Source: Sandaracinaceae bacterium (GTDB lineage Bacteria; Myxococcota_A; Polyangia; Polyangiales; Sandaracinaceae). From it: 64,000 nt of DNA. The notes under the pieces were generated by a model. It ran no database searches. It was not told the origin of the DNA and saw only the letters and a list, made by a program, of their open reading frames with translations. A program made the position numbers and the translations under genes. The stretch is taken from the NCBI GenBank assembly GCA_040218145.1, contig JAVJQK010000070.1, forward strand, positions 1 through 64,000, written 5' to 3'. The first letter of the stretch is position 1; the number at the start of each line of letters is the position of its first letter. This document shows, in pieces, positions 45,764 to 53,015 of the stretch.

Positions 45764-47965
45764 TCAGGTGACCGCGCGAATCGCGTCGAGCGGGACGACG
45801 CGAGAGACCTCGTCGCCCGCCTGCGTCCACAGCACGATGTCTTTCCCATCGGGCCGCGTGCGCAGCTCGTCGATCCAGACCTCGTCGAGCTCGAGGACGC
45901 CGCGCTGCATCCAGGCGACGGTCACCGTGTGATCGCAGCCCGCGTGCTCCGACAAGCAGCTGGCGATCTCGAGCCTCGTCTGCGGCGCGTCACCCACGTC
46001 GTCGGTGAAGGCGAGCGCGAGCGCCCCGGCGAGACCGGAGCTGTCGAGGGCCTTGCGGATCTTGCGGCCCGCCGGGCTCAGCTTGCCCGTCGCCGCGAGC
46101 TCCACGGCCTCTCCCCACACCGCCTCCAGCGCGACGCCCGGACGCAGGAGGCGCCCGCGGTGGTGCGGCGCGATCAGGAGCATCGTCAGGACGAAGGAGG
46201 GCTGACGCAGCACCCCCGCGGCGTCTTCTGGGCTGGAGTGCTCACGGAGCCAGGCCTCGATGGCGGGCATGTGCCGTTCGTGCTCCGCCTGCAAGATCGC
46301 GAGCGCCTTCCTGCCCGGTCCTGACAGGCTCTGGCCGAGCGCCTCGAGTCGAGCCCAGATGTCGTGGTCTTCGTCGGGCGGCGGCTCCTGCCAGCTCTCC
46401 GCCCACCCGGCCGCGCGGTCGGCCTCGACGCGCGCGCGGAGCGCCTCGTCAGGCGATGGGCGGGGGAACGCCGGGTACGGGGCGCCTGGCTCGTTCGCCG
46501 CGTTGGCCCAGCGCGCGTCGCTCTTGGCGCCGCCGCTCGCAGGCGCCGGGCTGAGGTCGAGGTCACACGCGAAGCCGGCCTTCGAGAGGCGCTCGGCGGC
46601 GCGCGTGGCGTCCGACACCGGGACCAGGAACAGCTCCTCCGACACCTGCTCACCGAGCCCCCGGAGGGCGGTCGACGCCCCCGGCGCGTGACGGCCGGGG
46701 ACGCGGATCGCCAGCATCGACTGGCCGCGCGCAACCTTGGCGCTCCCGGCCCAGTCGAGCACCTGAGCCCGGACGCTGTCGGGGAGCGGGTGGCGACCCA
46801 CCCGATCGAGCGCGTCCACCAGGTGTTCTCCGTCGATCCCGCGCAGCGCGGCCTGCGCCACCGTCTCCGGCCGCAGCCGGAACGTGAAGACCCGGTCCAG
46901 CTGCGTCAGCTCGGCCGCGACCGACAACACGGCCACCAGACGCGGGTCGGGGTCGGGCCCGACCATCACGTCGAGGTTCGGGGTGACGAAGCCCTCCACC
47001 CGGTCGGGTAGCCCCTCGGGTCGCGACGCCCAGGCCAACCAGTCCTGCCCGTCGACCTCGAAGCGCACGAGCTCCCGGACCTCCGCCATGCGCGCTCGCG
47101 CCTCCTCCCGGCAGGTCTCCGGGTCCGGCCGCCCCCACGCCTGCGAGGAGTGGCGCGCCGCCATGGAGGTCTCGACCTGGAGCGCCGGGCGCGGTCCGTC
47201 GGAGAGGCCGTCGCACAAGAATCGCTCATCGTACGTGGTCGCCCCGAGCCCGCGCGCGCAGCGCTGCATGGCCCCGAAGTCCACGTCGAAGGCCCCGCCT
47301 GCGTTGCGCAGCATGCCCCGGCGCACGGCGGAGATCAGCGCGGCGTCGAGGTAGTCTTCCGCGATGGAGAGCCGCTTCGCCAGCTTCTTGAGGGCGCCCC
47401 GGTGCGGGTCGCCGGCCTTCGTGCTGCGCACCTTCACGTGACACGCCCACCCCGCGACCGCGATGTCCTCCGGCGGCGCGGTGCGCGCCGTCGTGTCAGA
47501 CGGGATGACCGGCTCCCGCGGCGCGGTCACGCCTCGCACGAAGGGGAGCGCGACGTCGGCGAAGGGCCGGACCGCCAGCAGTCGGTGCTCCGCCGAGGTC
47601 GACCTCGTGTACCGGACCGCCAGCACCACACCCGCGTCCACCAGAGAGTCGCACGCGAGCGCCACTTGACCGATCGGCGCGCCGAGCCTCCGCGACATGC
47701 GCGAGGCGAGCGCGTTCGCGACCGCCTCCCCGCCCGCGTGAAACAACTCCTCCAGCGCCGCGATGGCCAGCGGCGGGAGCTCCGCGAGCTTGCGCTGGAC
47801 CCGCTGCGGCTCGGACCAGCGCGCCTCCAGGTCCTCGAACGACGCCCCGGGCGCGAGTCCCCACGCGCGCAGATGCCCGGGCACCGGCTCATCGAGGACC
47901 TTCCAGGCGTAGTCGGCGAACGGCAGCTCGTCAGTGGAGGGTCGCGCCTTCTTCTTCCGGGCCAT
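45764..47965 (-). CDS. Helicase-associated (Helicase_C_3-like) protein, XPB partner
   Basis: 733 aa from ATG 47965, with GGAGG nine bases upstream. Residues about 1-350 are helical winged-helix-like repeats (PPLAIAALEELFHAGGEAV); the middle has the DVMVGPDPDPRLVAVLSVAAEL block typical of the helicase-associated domain found beside bacterial XPB proteins (mycobacterial ercc3 neighbours). No ATPase motifs. The start lies 35 bases inside the XPB gene, so the two are tightly coupled. I infer that it binds or loads the XPB helicase on DNA. Confidence 0.7.
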   Translation of the reverse strand: MARKKKARPSTDELPFADYAWKVLDEPVPGHLRAWGLAPGASFEDLEARWSEPQRVQRKLAELPPLAIAALEELFHAGGEAVANALASRMSRRLGAPIGQVALACDSLVDAGVVLAVRYTRSTSAEHRLLAVRPFADVALPFVRGVTAPREPVIPSDTTARTAPPEDIAVAGWACHVKVRSTKAGDPHRGALKKLAKRLSIAEDYLDAALISAVRRGMLRNAGGAFDVDFGAMQRCARGLGATTYDERFLCDGLSDGPRPALQVETSMAARHSSQAWGRPDPETCREEARARMAEVRELVRFEVDGQDWLAWASRPEGLPDRVEGFVTPNLDVMVGPDPDPRLVAVLSVAAELTQLDRVFTFRLRPETVAQAALRGIDGEHLVDALDRVGRHPLPDSVRAQVLDWAGSAKVARGQSMLAIRVPGRHAPGASTALRGLGEQVSEELFLVPVSDATRAAERLSKAGFACDLDLSPAPASGGAKSDARWANAANEPGAPYPAFPRPSPDEALRARVEADRAAGWAESWQEPPPDEDHDIWARLEALGQSLSGPGRKALAILQAEHERHMPAIEAWLREHSSPEDAAGVLRQPSFVLTMLLIAPHHRGRLLRPGVALEAVWGEAVELAATGKLSPAGRKIRKALDSSGLAGALALAFTDDVGDAPQTRLEIASCLSEHAGCDHTVTVAWMQRGVLELDEVWIDELRTRPDGKDIVLWTQAGDEVSRVVPLDAIRAVT

Positions 47966-49601
47966 CGCTCCAATCCTCCAGGTAGTAGCGGTAGCCCTGC
48001 TCCGTCAAGAAGAGCTGACGGTGCAGGGCGTGCTGTTGCTCGACGGTGTCGCGCGAGACCAGCGAATAGAAGGTCGCGCCGCCCGCCTTCGGGCGCAGGA
48101 TCCGCCCGAGGCGCTGCGCCTCCTCCTGGCGCGAGCCCATGGTGCCGCTGATCTGGATCATCACGTTCGCCTCGGGCAGGTCGAGCGCGAAGTTCCCCAC
48201 GCGCGACAGCACCAGGCGAGAGATGTCGCCCTCGCGGAAGCCCTCGAGGAGCGTCTCTCGCTCCGCGTGCGGCGTCGACCCGGTGATGACGGGGGCCGAC
48301 AGCAGACGCCCCGCCGCGTCGAGCGGCGCGAGGTAGCTGCCGAGCACGAGGAGACGATCGCCCTCGTGACGGCGCGCGATCTCGGCCAGCGCGCGCAGCT
48401 TGGCAGGGTTCTCCGCCGCGATGCGCGGCTGCTCCCGGAGCGACGCCGACGCGTAGTCACCCGCGAGCGAGGCGGGCATGTCCACCCTCACCTCGAAGCA
48501 CGTCGCGTTGGCGATGTGCCCGGACGCCTCGAGCTCTCGCCACGGCACGTCGTAGCGCTTCGGGCCGATCAGCGCGAAGACGTCGGAGGCGCGTCCGTCC
48601 TCGCGCACGAGGGTGGCGGTGAGCCCGAGCCGGCGGTGGGCCTGCATCTCCGCGGTGAGGCGAAACATCGGCGCCGGGAGCAGGTGCACCTCGTCGTACA
48701 CCACGAGCCCCCACGGCTCGCCCGCGACCCGATCGAAGTGCACGTGCTTCGTCGGGCCTGCGCCACCGCGGCGCGCCATCATCGCGTAGGTGCTGACGGT
48801 GACCGGCGCGACGCGGTGGCTCCCCGACGCGTACACCGCCACGTCGTCCTCCCCGAGCGTGGTCTTGGCCAGCAGCTCGCGCCGCCACTGCGTGCAGGCC
48901 TCGCGCCCGCTGGTGAGCACGAGCGTGCGGGTCTTCAGCGCGGCGATGGCCATCATCGCGAGCACCGTCTTGCCCGCGCCACACGGGAGCACGATCACGC
49001 CGTGGCTGCCGGCGTCCAGGAAGGCGTCGCGGGCTGCGAGCTGATGCGGATAGGGGACGAACACGTCCTGACGCAAGCCGACCTCGAGCGGGGCGCCCTC
49101 TCGCAGCCCCGCGCGGTCGTCCACCGGCCAGCCGAGCTTCAAGATGGATTGCTTGACCGGACCGCGATCGATCAGGTCGATGAGGAAGCCGTCGGGGCAC
49201 GGGGCGAGCCGCTCCGAGAGCTTCCGGTTCGCCGCGAGACGCTGCCGCACGCCCGGCTCGCGCACCGCCAGCCTGAGCTTGCTCGGGTCCGAGGGGTGGT
49301 CATGCAGCGAGCACACCCCGTGGCGCGCCATGCGATCCATGATCTCGTGCTCCACGTGCGAGGGCACGGGGAAGCGGCTCATCGCCCTCAGCGCGCTCAG
49401 CACCTCGTCGGCGGTGAGGCCCGCGGCGGCCGCGTTCCAGAGCGAGAGATCTCCGACGCGGTAGGTGTGCACGTGCTCGGGCGACTTCTCGAGCTCGGCG
49501 AAGCGCGCCAGCTGCTTGCGCGCTGCGTCGTAGCCCGGGTGGTCGACCTCCAGGAGGACCGTGCGGTCTCCCTGGACGATGGCGGGGCGCTGGTCCGACA
49601 C
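47931..49601 (-). CDS. XPB/RAD25-type DNA helicase
   Basis: 556 aa from GTG 49601, chosen because TATGCC lies seven bases upstream; ATG 49613 is a possible longer start. Superfamily-2 motifs: Walker A VLPCGAGKTVL, DEVH box YDEVHLLP, motif III LTATLVREDG (the RED motif of XPB) and motif VI QEEAQRLGRILRPK. An N-terminal domain of about 200 residues resembles the damage-recognition-like part. XPB helicases act in DNA repair and unwinding 3' to 5'. It is coupled to the Helicase_C_3-like protein. Confidence 0.92.
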   Translation of the reverse strand: MSDQRPAIVQGDRTVLLEVDHPGYDAARKQLARFAELEKSPEHVHTYRVGDLSLWNAAAAGLTADEVLSALRAMSRFPVPSHVEHEIMDRMARHGVCSLHDHPSDPSKLRLAVREPGVRQRLAANRKLSERLAPCPDGFLIDLIDRGPVKQSILKLGWPVDDRAGLREGAPLEVGLRQDVFVPYPHQLAARDAFLDAGSHGVIVLPCGAGKTVLAMMAIAALKTRTLVLTSGREACTQWRRELLAKTTLGEDDVAVYASGSHRVAPVTVSTYAMMARRGGAGPTKHVHFDRVAGEPWGLVVYDEVHLLPAPMFRLTAEMQAHRRLGLTATLVREDGRASDVFALIGPKRYDVPWRELEASGHIANATCFEVRVDMPASLAGDYASASLREQPRIAAENPAKLRALAEIARRHEGDRLLVLGSYLAPLDAAGRLLSAPVITGSTPHAERETLLEGFREGDISRLVLSRVGNFALDLPEANVMIQISGTMGSRQEEAQRLGRILRPKAGGATFYSLVSRDTVEQQHALHRQLFLTEQGYRYYLEDWSDGPEEEGATLH

Positions 49602-49608
49602 GCAGGTG

Positions 49609-49614
49609 GGCATA
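49609..49614 (-). promoter_or_regulatory. Candidate -10 box of the XPB gene
   Basis: TATGCC on the minus strand, 7 bases before GTG 49601; the in-frame ATG 49613 lies inside it. Confidence 0.4.
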
Positions 49615-49643
49615 GCCGAGGCCTGAGTCCACGTCACGCCCGA

Positions 49644-50974: not shown

Positions 50975-51964
50975 TTGCAGACTCGACGCTGGATCTTCTT
51001 CGCCTGGCTCGCTGCATTCTACGTCGCCTGGGCGACGCTCGTGCTCGTGGGCGACCTCTGGCCCACGGTCGCCTCGCACTGGCCGATCGCGGCCTCGATG
51101 GCGGCCGGCTCGTACTTCGCGGGCTCGACCCCGATGGGCGGCGGCACGGTGGGCTTCCCGGTGCTCGTCCTCCTGTTCGATCAGCCCGCCTCGATGGGCC
51201 GTAACTTCGGCTTCGCCGTGCAGTCGATCGGGATGGTCTCCGCGAGCATCTACATCCTCTCGCACCGCGTGCCCATCGACTGGCGCACCCTGCGCGCCGC
51301 GCTCCCCGCCGCCGCGCTCACGACGCCGCTCTGCGCCGCGCTCATCGCGCCGCGCGTGCCGTCCGCGCTGGCCACCCTGGTCTACTCGGTCATCGTCGCC
51401 TCGTTCGGCCTCATGCACCTCGCGCGCATCCGGACCGTGGCCGCCTGCACACGGAGGCGCCCCTCCGAGCGGGAGGGGCGGTGGCTCGGGCTCGTCGCCG
51501 GTTGCGCGGGGGGCCTCGTCGCGTCGATGACCGGCGTCGGCATCGACATGCTCGTCTACATCGGCATGGTGGCGTACGCGCGGGTCGACATGCGCGTCGC
51601 GATCCCGACGTCGGTGATCCTGATGGCCTTCACCTCGCTCGTCGGCGTCGGCTCGAACGTCGCCCTCGGATCCGTCGATCGCGCGGTCTTCGACAACTGG
51701 CTCGCCGCCGCGCCCATCGTCGCGCTCGGCGCGCCGCTCGGCTCGATCGTCGTCACGTACCTGTCCCGGGAGAAGACCCTGCTCGTGACGTCCGTCCTCT
51801 GCGTCGCGCAGCTCGTCTGGGCCCTCGTCTCGGAGGGGATCACGGGGCTGCCCCTCGTCGCGACGCTGTCGGCCGTCGCCGCGCTGGCCGGCGGCTTCCA
51901 CGTGCTCTTCCGCGCCGGAGCGCGAGGCGCGCGGGCTGCGAGCCGTGTTCTCCCTCGTCCGTGA
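50975..51964 (+). CDS. TauE/SafE-family permease (sulfite/sulfoacetate exporter-like)
   Basis: 329 aa, eight or so hydrophobic segments. The family pattern is seen: GSYFAGSTPMGGGTVGFPVL in the first half (given in part), a repeat GLVASMTGVGIDMLVYIG in the second, as expected for the duplicated TauE/SafE fold. It should move a small organic anion such as sulfite or a sulfonate; no sulfur gene is adjacent. Start TTG 50975; no better ATG is in frame. A 40-bp-period repeat array begins 12 bases after its stop. Confidence 0.8.
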   Translation: MQTRRWIFFAWLAAFYVAWATLVLVGDLWPTVASHWPIAASMAAGSYFAGSTPMGGGTVGFPVLVLLFDQPASMGRNFGFAVQSIGMVSASIYILSHRVPIDWRTLRAALPAAALTTPLCAALIAPRVPSALATLVYSVIVASFGLMHLARIRTVAACTRRRPSEREGRWLGLVAGCAGGLVASMTGVGIDMLVYIGMVAYARVDMRVAIPTSVILMAFTSLVGVGSNVALGSVDRAVFDNWLAAAPIVALGAPLGSIVVTYLSREKTLLVTSVLCVAQLVWALVSEGITGLPLVATLSAVAALAGGFHVLFRAGARGARAASRVLPRP

Positions 51965-51975
51965 CGCCAGGAGCG

Positions 51976-52245
51976 CGTTCGGGGCGAGAAAACTCGCTCG
52001 CAAGTCTATCTGCGAGGTTCTGGACGAGTCTGCGGACCTGGAGATGACCCCTGGGCCCTCTTCGGGGCGAGTCAGCTCGCGACGAAGACTGAATTCAGCG
52101 TCCCGGACGAGAGAGCTCGTTCAGTCGACAACGACTATCGATAAAGACGAAAAAACTGACAGAATGGCAAAAGAATAGCGTTCTGGACGAGCAGACTCGT
52201 CCCGATCCTCGACGAGAACGATCGAGACGAGAAACTCCGACGCCG
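51976..52245. repeat. Seven-unit array, about 40-bp period, CGAG-N4-CTCG cores
   Basis: Cores start at 51985, 52025, 52068, 52108, 52148, 52188 and 52228. Copies 1, 3, 4 and 6 are perfect CGAG-N4-CTCG dyads (spacers AAAA, TCAG, AGAG, CAGA); copies 2, 5 and 7 are degenerate. A weakly shared lead-in, TTC(T/G)GG(A/G)CGAG, precedes copies 1, 2, 3 and 6. Intervals are 40, 43, 40, 40, 40 and 40. The bases between cores are not conserved. Not CRISPR: the repeat is short and no cas genes occur. A regularly phased protein-binding array or a structured RNA are the main possibilities. Confidence 0.7.
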
Positions 52246-52283
52246 GGAGCCCCGCTCGGGCCCACGCCAGTCGACGACGCAGG

Positions 52284-52295: not shown

Positions 52296-53015
52296 ATGGC
52301 ACATCGCATCACCATGCTGCTCGCCCTCCTCTCGGTGGCATGCGCCTCGCGCGAGGCCGCGCCGCCCCGCTGTACGCCCGGCTCGAGCGCCAGCTGCTCC
52401 TGCACAGACGGCCGCGCGGGGGCGCAGCGGTGCTCCGAGCAAGGAGACTTCGGGCCGTGCGTCTGCGAGGCCGCGCTCCCGCCCGCGGGAGAGGAAGCAC
52501 CGGAGGCCGCCGCGGCGCGGGGCTGCGCTCTCGCTACGGGGGCGCAGGCGCAGGCGCCCCTCGCGCACGTGCGGTCGGCGCTCGGGGCCGCGGCGTCGGC
52601 GCTGGTCGAGACCTGCGCCGAGCGTGACGCCAGCGTCTCCGCCGACGCGCTCGGGGCGGCGTTCGACGCCTGCCCCGCAGAGCCGACCGCGCCCGGCGCG
52701 TTCGAGGCGTGCGGGCCGGAGGGCCAGTGCTGTCGCGTCGGCGTGTCCAGCCTGCTGGGGCCGCCAGGCGACGGCGAGGGGAGCTGGGTCGTCTTCCGCG
52801 CGCCGATGGGCGTCGCCGATTACACCGAGCACGTCTACTGGCTACCGCCCGACGGCTCCCGCGTGGAGCGCCTGTGCGCGTGGGCCCCCTATCTGCTCGG
52901 CTGCCCTGAGGAGGGTGACCTGCTCGACGTCGAGGGCTGCGACATGACGCCCCGCCAGTGGGCCGAGATCGGCTACGACGTCCGCCGCTTCCTGTGCCAG
53001 GCGCCCATGCCTTGA
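52296..53015 (+). CDS. Cys-rich lipoprotein of unknown function
   Basis: 239 aa. Signal with lipobox SVAC (Cys about 16). Twelve or more Cys residues, several in pairs (CSCTDG, CVCE, QCCRVG), suggest a disulfide-stabilised extracytoplasmic protein. It has a C-terminal aromatic segment (YTEHVYWLPPDG). No family recognised. Its promoter box lies at the end of the repeat array, so the array may regulate it. Confidence 0.6.
   Translation: MAHRITMLLALLSVACASREAAPPRCTPGSSASCSCTDGRAGAQRCSEQGDFGPCVCEAALPPAGEEAPEAAAARGCALATGAQAQAPLAHVRSALGAAASALVETCAERDASVSADALGAAFDACPAEPTAPGAFEACGPEGQCCRVGVSSLLGPPGDGEGSWVVFRAPMGVADYTEHVYWLPPDGSRVERLCAWAPYLLGCPEEGDLLDVEGCDMTPRQWAEIGYDVRRFLCQAPMP

Follow-up and report, generated by a model that had tools for sequence, protein, structure and literature searches.

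Sandaracinaceae genomes carry arrays of palindromes in which the period and the pairing of the arms are kept, whereas the letters themselves are replaced between places and species. Units of this class are 40-42 bp long, which makes about four helical turns, and in many cases a unit contains two dyads whose centres lie about 20.5 bp from each other. One such array lies in the window analysed here, a stretch of 64,000 nucleotides from a Sandaracinaceae bacterium (assembly GCA_040218145.1, contig JAVJQK010000070.1, positions 1 to 64,000; genome G000), where it combines, in non-coding DNA, a 40-42 bp period with dyads beyond those that tandem repetition brings. Our best guess, to which we give a probability of about 0.42, is that these arrays are fast-evolving, dispersed non-coding palindromic satellites of the family that are maintained by a hairpin process acting at the DNA level.

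The window array occupies a gap whose GC content is 59%, against about 70% for the genome, and which is crossed by no convincing gene (Table 1). Its seven cores follow each other in steps of 40, 43, 40, 40, 40 and 40 bp and four of them are perfect CGAG-N4-CTCG dyads; the core coordinates thus bear out the description in the first-pass annotation, which had reported seven cores at 40-bp intervals (one of 43) with four perfect dyads. A second series of dyads (n=3), which the first-pass annotation had overlooked, is interleaved with the cores, the centres falling at most 0.5 bp from the inter-core midpoint, and the paralogue alignment shows one of these half-phase dyads, TCGACAACGACTATCGA, to be homologous to TTGATAACGCCTATCGA of the C127 paralogue described below. 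Elsewhere in the window, a 568-aa XPB/ERCC3-type helicase (PF16203, PF13625) is encoded on the minus strand at 47931-49637 and adjoins a 733-aa ORF on the same strand (45764-47965).

Table 1. Parts of the window array and the genes that flank it (window positions).
Feature	Position	Strand	Description
TauE-family gene	50975-51964	+	flanks the array
Whole array	51976-52250		non-coding; TauE-family gene on one side, ORF without Pfam match on the other
Core 1	51985-51996		CGAG-AAAA-CTCG, perfect dyad
Core 2	52025-52036		CGAG-TCTG-CGGA, dyad lost; 40 bp past core 1
Core 3	52068-52079		CGAG-TCAG-CTCG, perfect dyad; arm broken in MED-G138 (CCAG)
Half-phase dyad	52089-52098		CTGAATTCAG; centre 52093.5, midpoint of cores 3 and 4
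Core 4	52108-52119		CGAG-AGAG-CTCG, perfect dyad
Half-phase dyad	52125-52141		TCGA-N9-TCGA (TCGACAACGACTATCGA), read from the sequence
Stretch matching the C127 array of G000	52127-52173	+	85% over 47 bp
Core 5	52148-52159		CGAAAAAACTGA; form present in the paralogues (GACGGAAAAACTGACAGAATGGC)
Core 6	52188-52199		CGAG-CAGA-CTCG, perfect dyad; wider arms TCTGGACGAG/CTCGTCCCGA; arm broken in MED-G138
Half-phase dyad	52203-52224		CGATC-N12-GATCG; centre 52213.5, midpoint of cores 6 and 7
Core 7	52228-52239		CGAGAAACTCCG, degenerate
ORF without Pfam match	52296-53015	+	flanks the array

The motif CGAG-N4-CTCG is found 12 times in the whole window against 11.8 expected, so that only its clustering and its phase are unusual. 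Randomised genomes, a comparison that the first-pass annotation had proposed, were drawn as order-2 Markov sequences of the window's composition: clusters of four or more same-arm dyads in 230 bp occurred in 30 of 100, but clusters that were additionally phased at 40 bp in only 2 of 100. The best lag of the array is 40, and in 2000 order-1 Markov sequences modelled on the gap the identity at this lag never came up to the observed 0.42. The dyads of the array also exceed a null that keeps the repetition (p 0.005, which is the floor of the test), with the second-best centre at 20.0 bp. Covariation of its arms between units gave p 0.013, whereas the arm changes between strains, described below, are uncompensated.

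The idea of a lone element proved wrong. Two diverged paralogues of the window array, both intergenic and with a unit of 81 bp (2 x 40.5), are present in the source genome on contigs C127 and C96, and weak model matches led to further intergenic arrays of 41-bp period and other sequences on C7, C94 and C21. Directly ahead of the C21 dyads, two GACAAAATGACAAACATTTAGT copies stand about 41 bp apart (L091:12784-12865) and are similar to the half-unit GACAGAATGGCAAAT from the C127 array. The metagenome-assembled genome of a near strain, Sandaracinaceae MED-G138, carries the window, C127 and C96 arrays. At C96 the flanks are almost identical and MED-G138 has exactly one extra 81-bp unit, a clean difference which indicates that unit number changes in whole units. 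At the window locus the unit number is unchanged, and 13 of 265 sites of the array differ compared to 13 of 1000 in the upstream 1 kb, a rate about four times faster. Among these differences CGAG has become CCAG in unit 3 and CGCG in unit 6 of MED-G138, neither with a compensating change. The window copy is probably a partly decayed member of the class. A coding origin of the 81-bp unit (27 codons, ..DCDGKTDRMAK..) was rejected, since the reading frame is not kept through the 40/41-bp steps and through a 1-bp indel of MED-G138. On contig C13 of near-strain genome G057, CGTCGA/TCGACG arms surround TCGATAACGACTATCGA in 40-bp steps (L051:1460-1605).

The same period recurs in other sequences of the family, of which two genera were well covered (G000 and G001) together with 500 kb of G006. 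In low-GC windows of 1.04 Mb of G000, a sample consisting of contigs on which arrays had been found before, a lag scan returned as non-3n lags 40, 41, 82 and 83, and 92 at one locus. The Sandaracinus-like genome G001, a single contig of 10.33 Mb from the same family, was scanned over 1.02 Mb chosen blind to arrays except for 400 kb extending from two first-match pieces. At least 12 arrays of 40-42 bp period, mostly unrelated in sequence, were found in this sample, lag 41 at 10 loci being followed by its near-multiples 82-83 and 124-125, and under a stricter GC limit any other non-3n lag occurred at two loci at most. Tandem Repeats Finder (TRF), with units of 40 to 42 bp, agrees with the lag scan. 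Sequence comparison of the arrays placed only 6 of 153 pairs above the 99% level of the null. Stretches of G006 (the first 100 kb), G056 (200 kb) and G004 (100 kb) showed no lag-41 array; the last two samples are too small to speak for absence, and a 42-bp S135-type array was later read within the G006 stretch. The genes next to the arrays are ordinary and diverse, and every relative orientation occurs among them. A plasmid search with the S142 array gave no match. It should be noted that G001 also holds a 43-bp-period tandem repeat (L143:15712-15979) with a dyad excess (p 0.03), which might be related to the class, with a longer unit.

The dyads were assessed in 18 arrays, picked after detection, by permuting the unit columns so that tandem repetition was kept (permutation floor 1/201). 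The dyad excess over this null reached a Fisher p of 8e-15 at the best centre and of 1e-14 with the half-phase partner. By contrast, control tandem arrays of other periods reached 0.05 in 5 of 39 cases (Fisher p 0.17). Individually, five of the 18 arrays (C127, S105, S115, S117 and S138) show no excess at 0.05 at the best centre, and the half-phase dyad is the second-best centre in only seven. The distances between dyad centres peak at 20-21 and 41-42 bp. When the letters of each column were redealt among units the score fell (Fisher p 5e-9), as expected of covarying arms, although redealing also breaks the linkage of sub-types between units and the signal may partly reflect shared ancestry. 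Pairs were counted by script, as MAFFT had put the second dyad of S142-type units one column off: 124 positions are paired in at least 60% of units compared to 35-46 for slid partners, and 25 of these 124 have changed on both sides compared to 3-11 for slid partners.

The replacement of letters under a constant layout is seen between G001 and its sister species G006, whose flanking genes at array loci are about 88-97% identical, mostly 90-96%. Beside an asnS-like gene, the GGCGAAT..ATTCGCC dyads of G001 follow two GGTATC..GGTAC-type units, whereas the G006 array is of the GGTATC..GGTAC type throughout; the same locus carries GGCGAAT..ATTCGCC arms in G001 versus CGGTA..TACCG in G006. At S117, G001 has GTTGCAGC/GCTGCAAC arms whereas those of G006 form another, longer pair, the period being near 42 bp in the two arrays, and at S105 each species has an array, with arms that differ between the two. 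In G006 the locus of S113 lacks the array and that of S142 is down to a few palindromes, an S142-type array being present elsewhere in this genome. In S142-type loci the second dyad switches between CGATT..AATCG and GGATT..AATCC. The 42-bp S135-type array at L162:5640-5980 (G006:C1, about 1.0056 Mb) contains one unit with other, still-pairing arms, GTGACC..GGTCAC versus CGACCAGTG..CACTGGTCG in the rest. The first-pass annotation had held that arm pairing is kept rather than sequence, and had proposed to compare relatives for compensatory changes. For the class this view stands, on the covariation, the slid-partner control and the different arms at orthologous loci, but over the short distance to the near strain it fails at the window locus itself, where the arm changes are uncompensated.

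Several known systems resemble these arrays in part. The REP, BIME and REPIN elements, with their RAYT (TnpA-REP) proteins, are likewise short clustered intergenic palindromes scattered over a genome. REP families have an associated Y1 transposase and a family-conserved sequence, as is generally known and described in PMC2817692. Here, by contrast, the arms vary from array to array, and the Y1 transposase (PF01797, the RAYT hallmark), with two matches in G000, had none in G008 or in the array-rich G001 and G006. A REP/RAYT identity was rejected on the lack of this transposase in the latter two genomes and of a conserved palindrome per family. CRISPR fits poorly too, as the window cores are diverged and the units elsewhere are tandem without separate spacers; the immediate neighbours of the window array are not cas genes. 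Intrinsic terminators, sought as G+C-rich hairpins with a T run behind them, matched once, on the minus strand at 51997-52016, and the repeated cores gave none. The statement in the first-pass annotation that the array is neither CRISPR, terminator nor REP therefore holds as far as these tests went.

The rows of palindromes at Streptomyces telomeres can form single-strand hairpins and their structure is kept more than their sequence, but the present arrays are internal, intergenic, numerous in each genome and phased at 20.5/41 bp. Iterons are helically phased direct repeats near 20-22 bp, of one sequence and bound by a Rep protein; the arrays share the repeat length and the phasing, but their repeats are inverted and free in sequence, and no Rep gene was noticed next to the window array. 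Tandem units, copy changes by whole units and concerted turnover are shared with VNTRs and satellite DNA, from which the arrays differ in that one period runs across unrelated sequences and dyad pairing survives two-sided changes. The papers found hold nothing on such arrays, and in the S. amylolyticus genome paper (PMC5010890) the searched words matched only CRISPRFinder. A separate observation concerns an 81-bp dispersed repeat, GAGGAAGGCAGGAGGAGAAGGAAGACCACGTGAGTGGTCTTC, at L119:11222-11478 (G001:C1, about 4.171 Mb), which has many scattered sequence matches in G006, and looks like a REP-like family distinct from the 41-bp arrays.

The common period in unrelated arrays could equally be a functional ruler, which weighs against the hairpin satellite, as do the two uncompensated arm changes at the window locus. 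The arrays might then be platforms of phased palindromes, two turns apart on one face of the DNA, bound by a protein, architectural or structure-sensing, whose target would be hairpins, cruciforms or dyad symmetry and not a fixed sequence. The four-turn period and two-turn half period kept across unrelated sequences, the covarying arms and the mixed orientation of neighbours agree with such a platform, but there is no candidate protein, phased AT bending at 10.25 bp gave no signal, and at orthologous sites the sister species lacks arrays or has reduced ones, so that we consider it unlikely. Binding by a specific sequence fares worse. The first-pass annotation had suggested a dimeric protein site, and dyad symmetry with helical phasing is generally typical of operators; yet the arms differ from one array to another within a genome, as they do at a single locus between sister species, and reading by eye found no shared regulator among the array-flanking proteins. 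Operator arrays for sequence-specific dimeric regulators are accordingly very improbable.

Transcribed strings of RNA hairpins, serving stability, as decoys or as processing substrates, would also account for covarying arms, and the plus strand of the window array folds better than its shuffles (z -3.07). This reading is nevertheless quite unlikely: the C127 array and the MED-G138 copy of C96 show no folding advantage over shuffles, only 0-1 bases are unpaired at the centre of many dyads, RNA needs no fixed spacing, the neighbours are in mixed orientation and Rfam models gave no match. Stem mismatches comprise 19 G-T versus 11 A-C, an excess which speaks little for RNA in numbers too few to decide a G-U asymmetry. 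Little credence is likewise given to ordinary neutral VNTRs whose shared period and dyads result from coincidence or base composition. Whole-unit shifts in copy number and fast turnover are what such repeats would show, but among non-3n periods just 41 bp and its multiples recur, and the control repeats lack the dyad excess.

According to the preferred reading, the hairpin-driven satellite, arrays would grow and shrink by duplication and deletion of units and occasionally arise at new loci. They may share a common origin, spread included, with descent assumed where sequence similarity is absent. Arm pairing would be the physical basis of their upkeep, through hairpins formed in single-stranded DNA during replication or recombination, in which template switching might copy one arm onto the other or pairing might be selected. 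The common period would be inherited by descent or set by the hairpin process and not by a regulatory need of the neighbouring gene. A bolder proposal, possible but doubtful, is an element class defined by geometry alone, with palindromes two turns apart in four-turn units of free sequence, for which a dedicated process, of the host or selfish, would read or rebuild the arm pairing and not any sequence. Sequence is the usual mark by which bacterial repeats are recognised, whereas here spacing and pairing outlast sequence at orthologous loci. The arrays thus allow a direct test of what keeps palindromes in bacterial chromosomes: rebuilding by template switching, selection for structure or a protein that reads structure.
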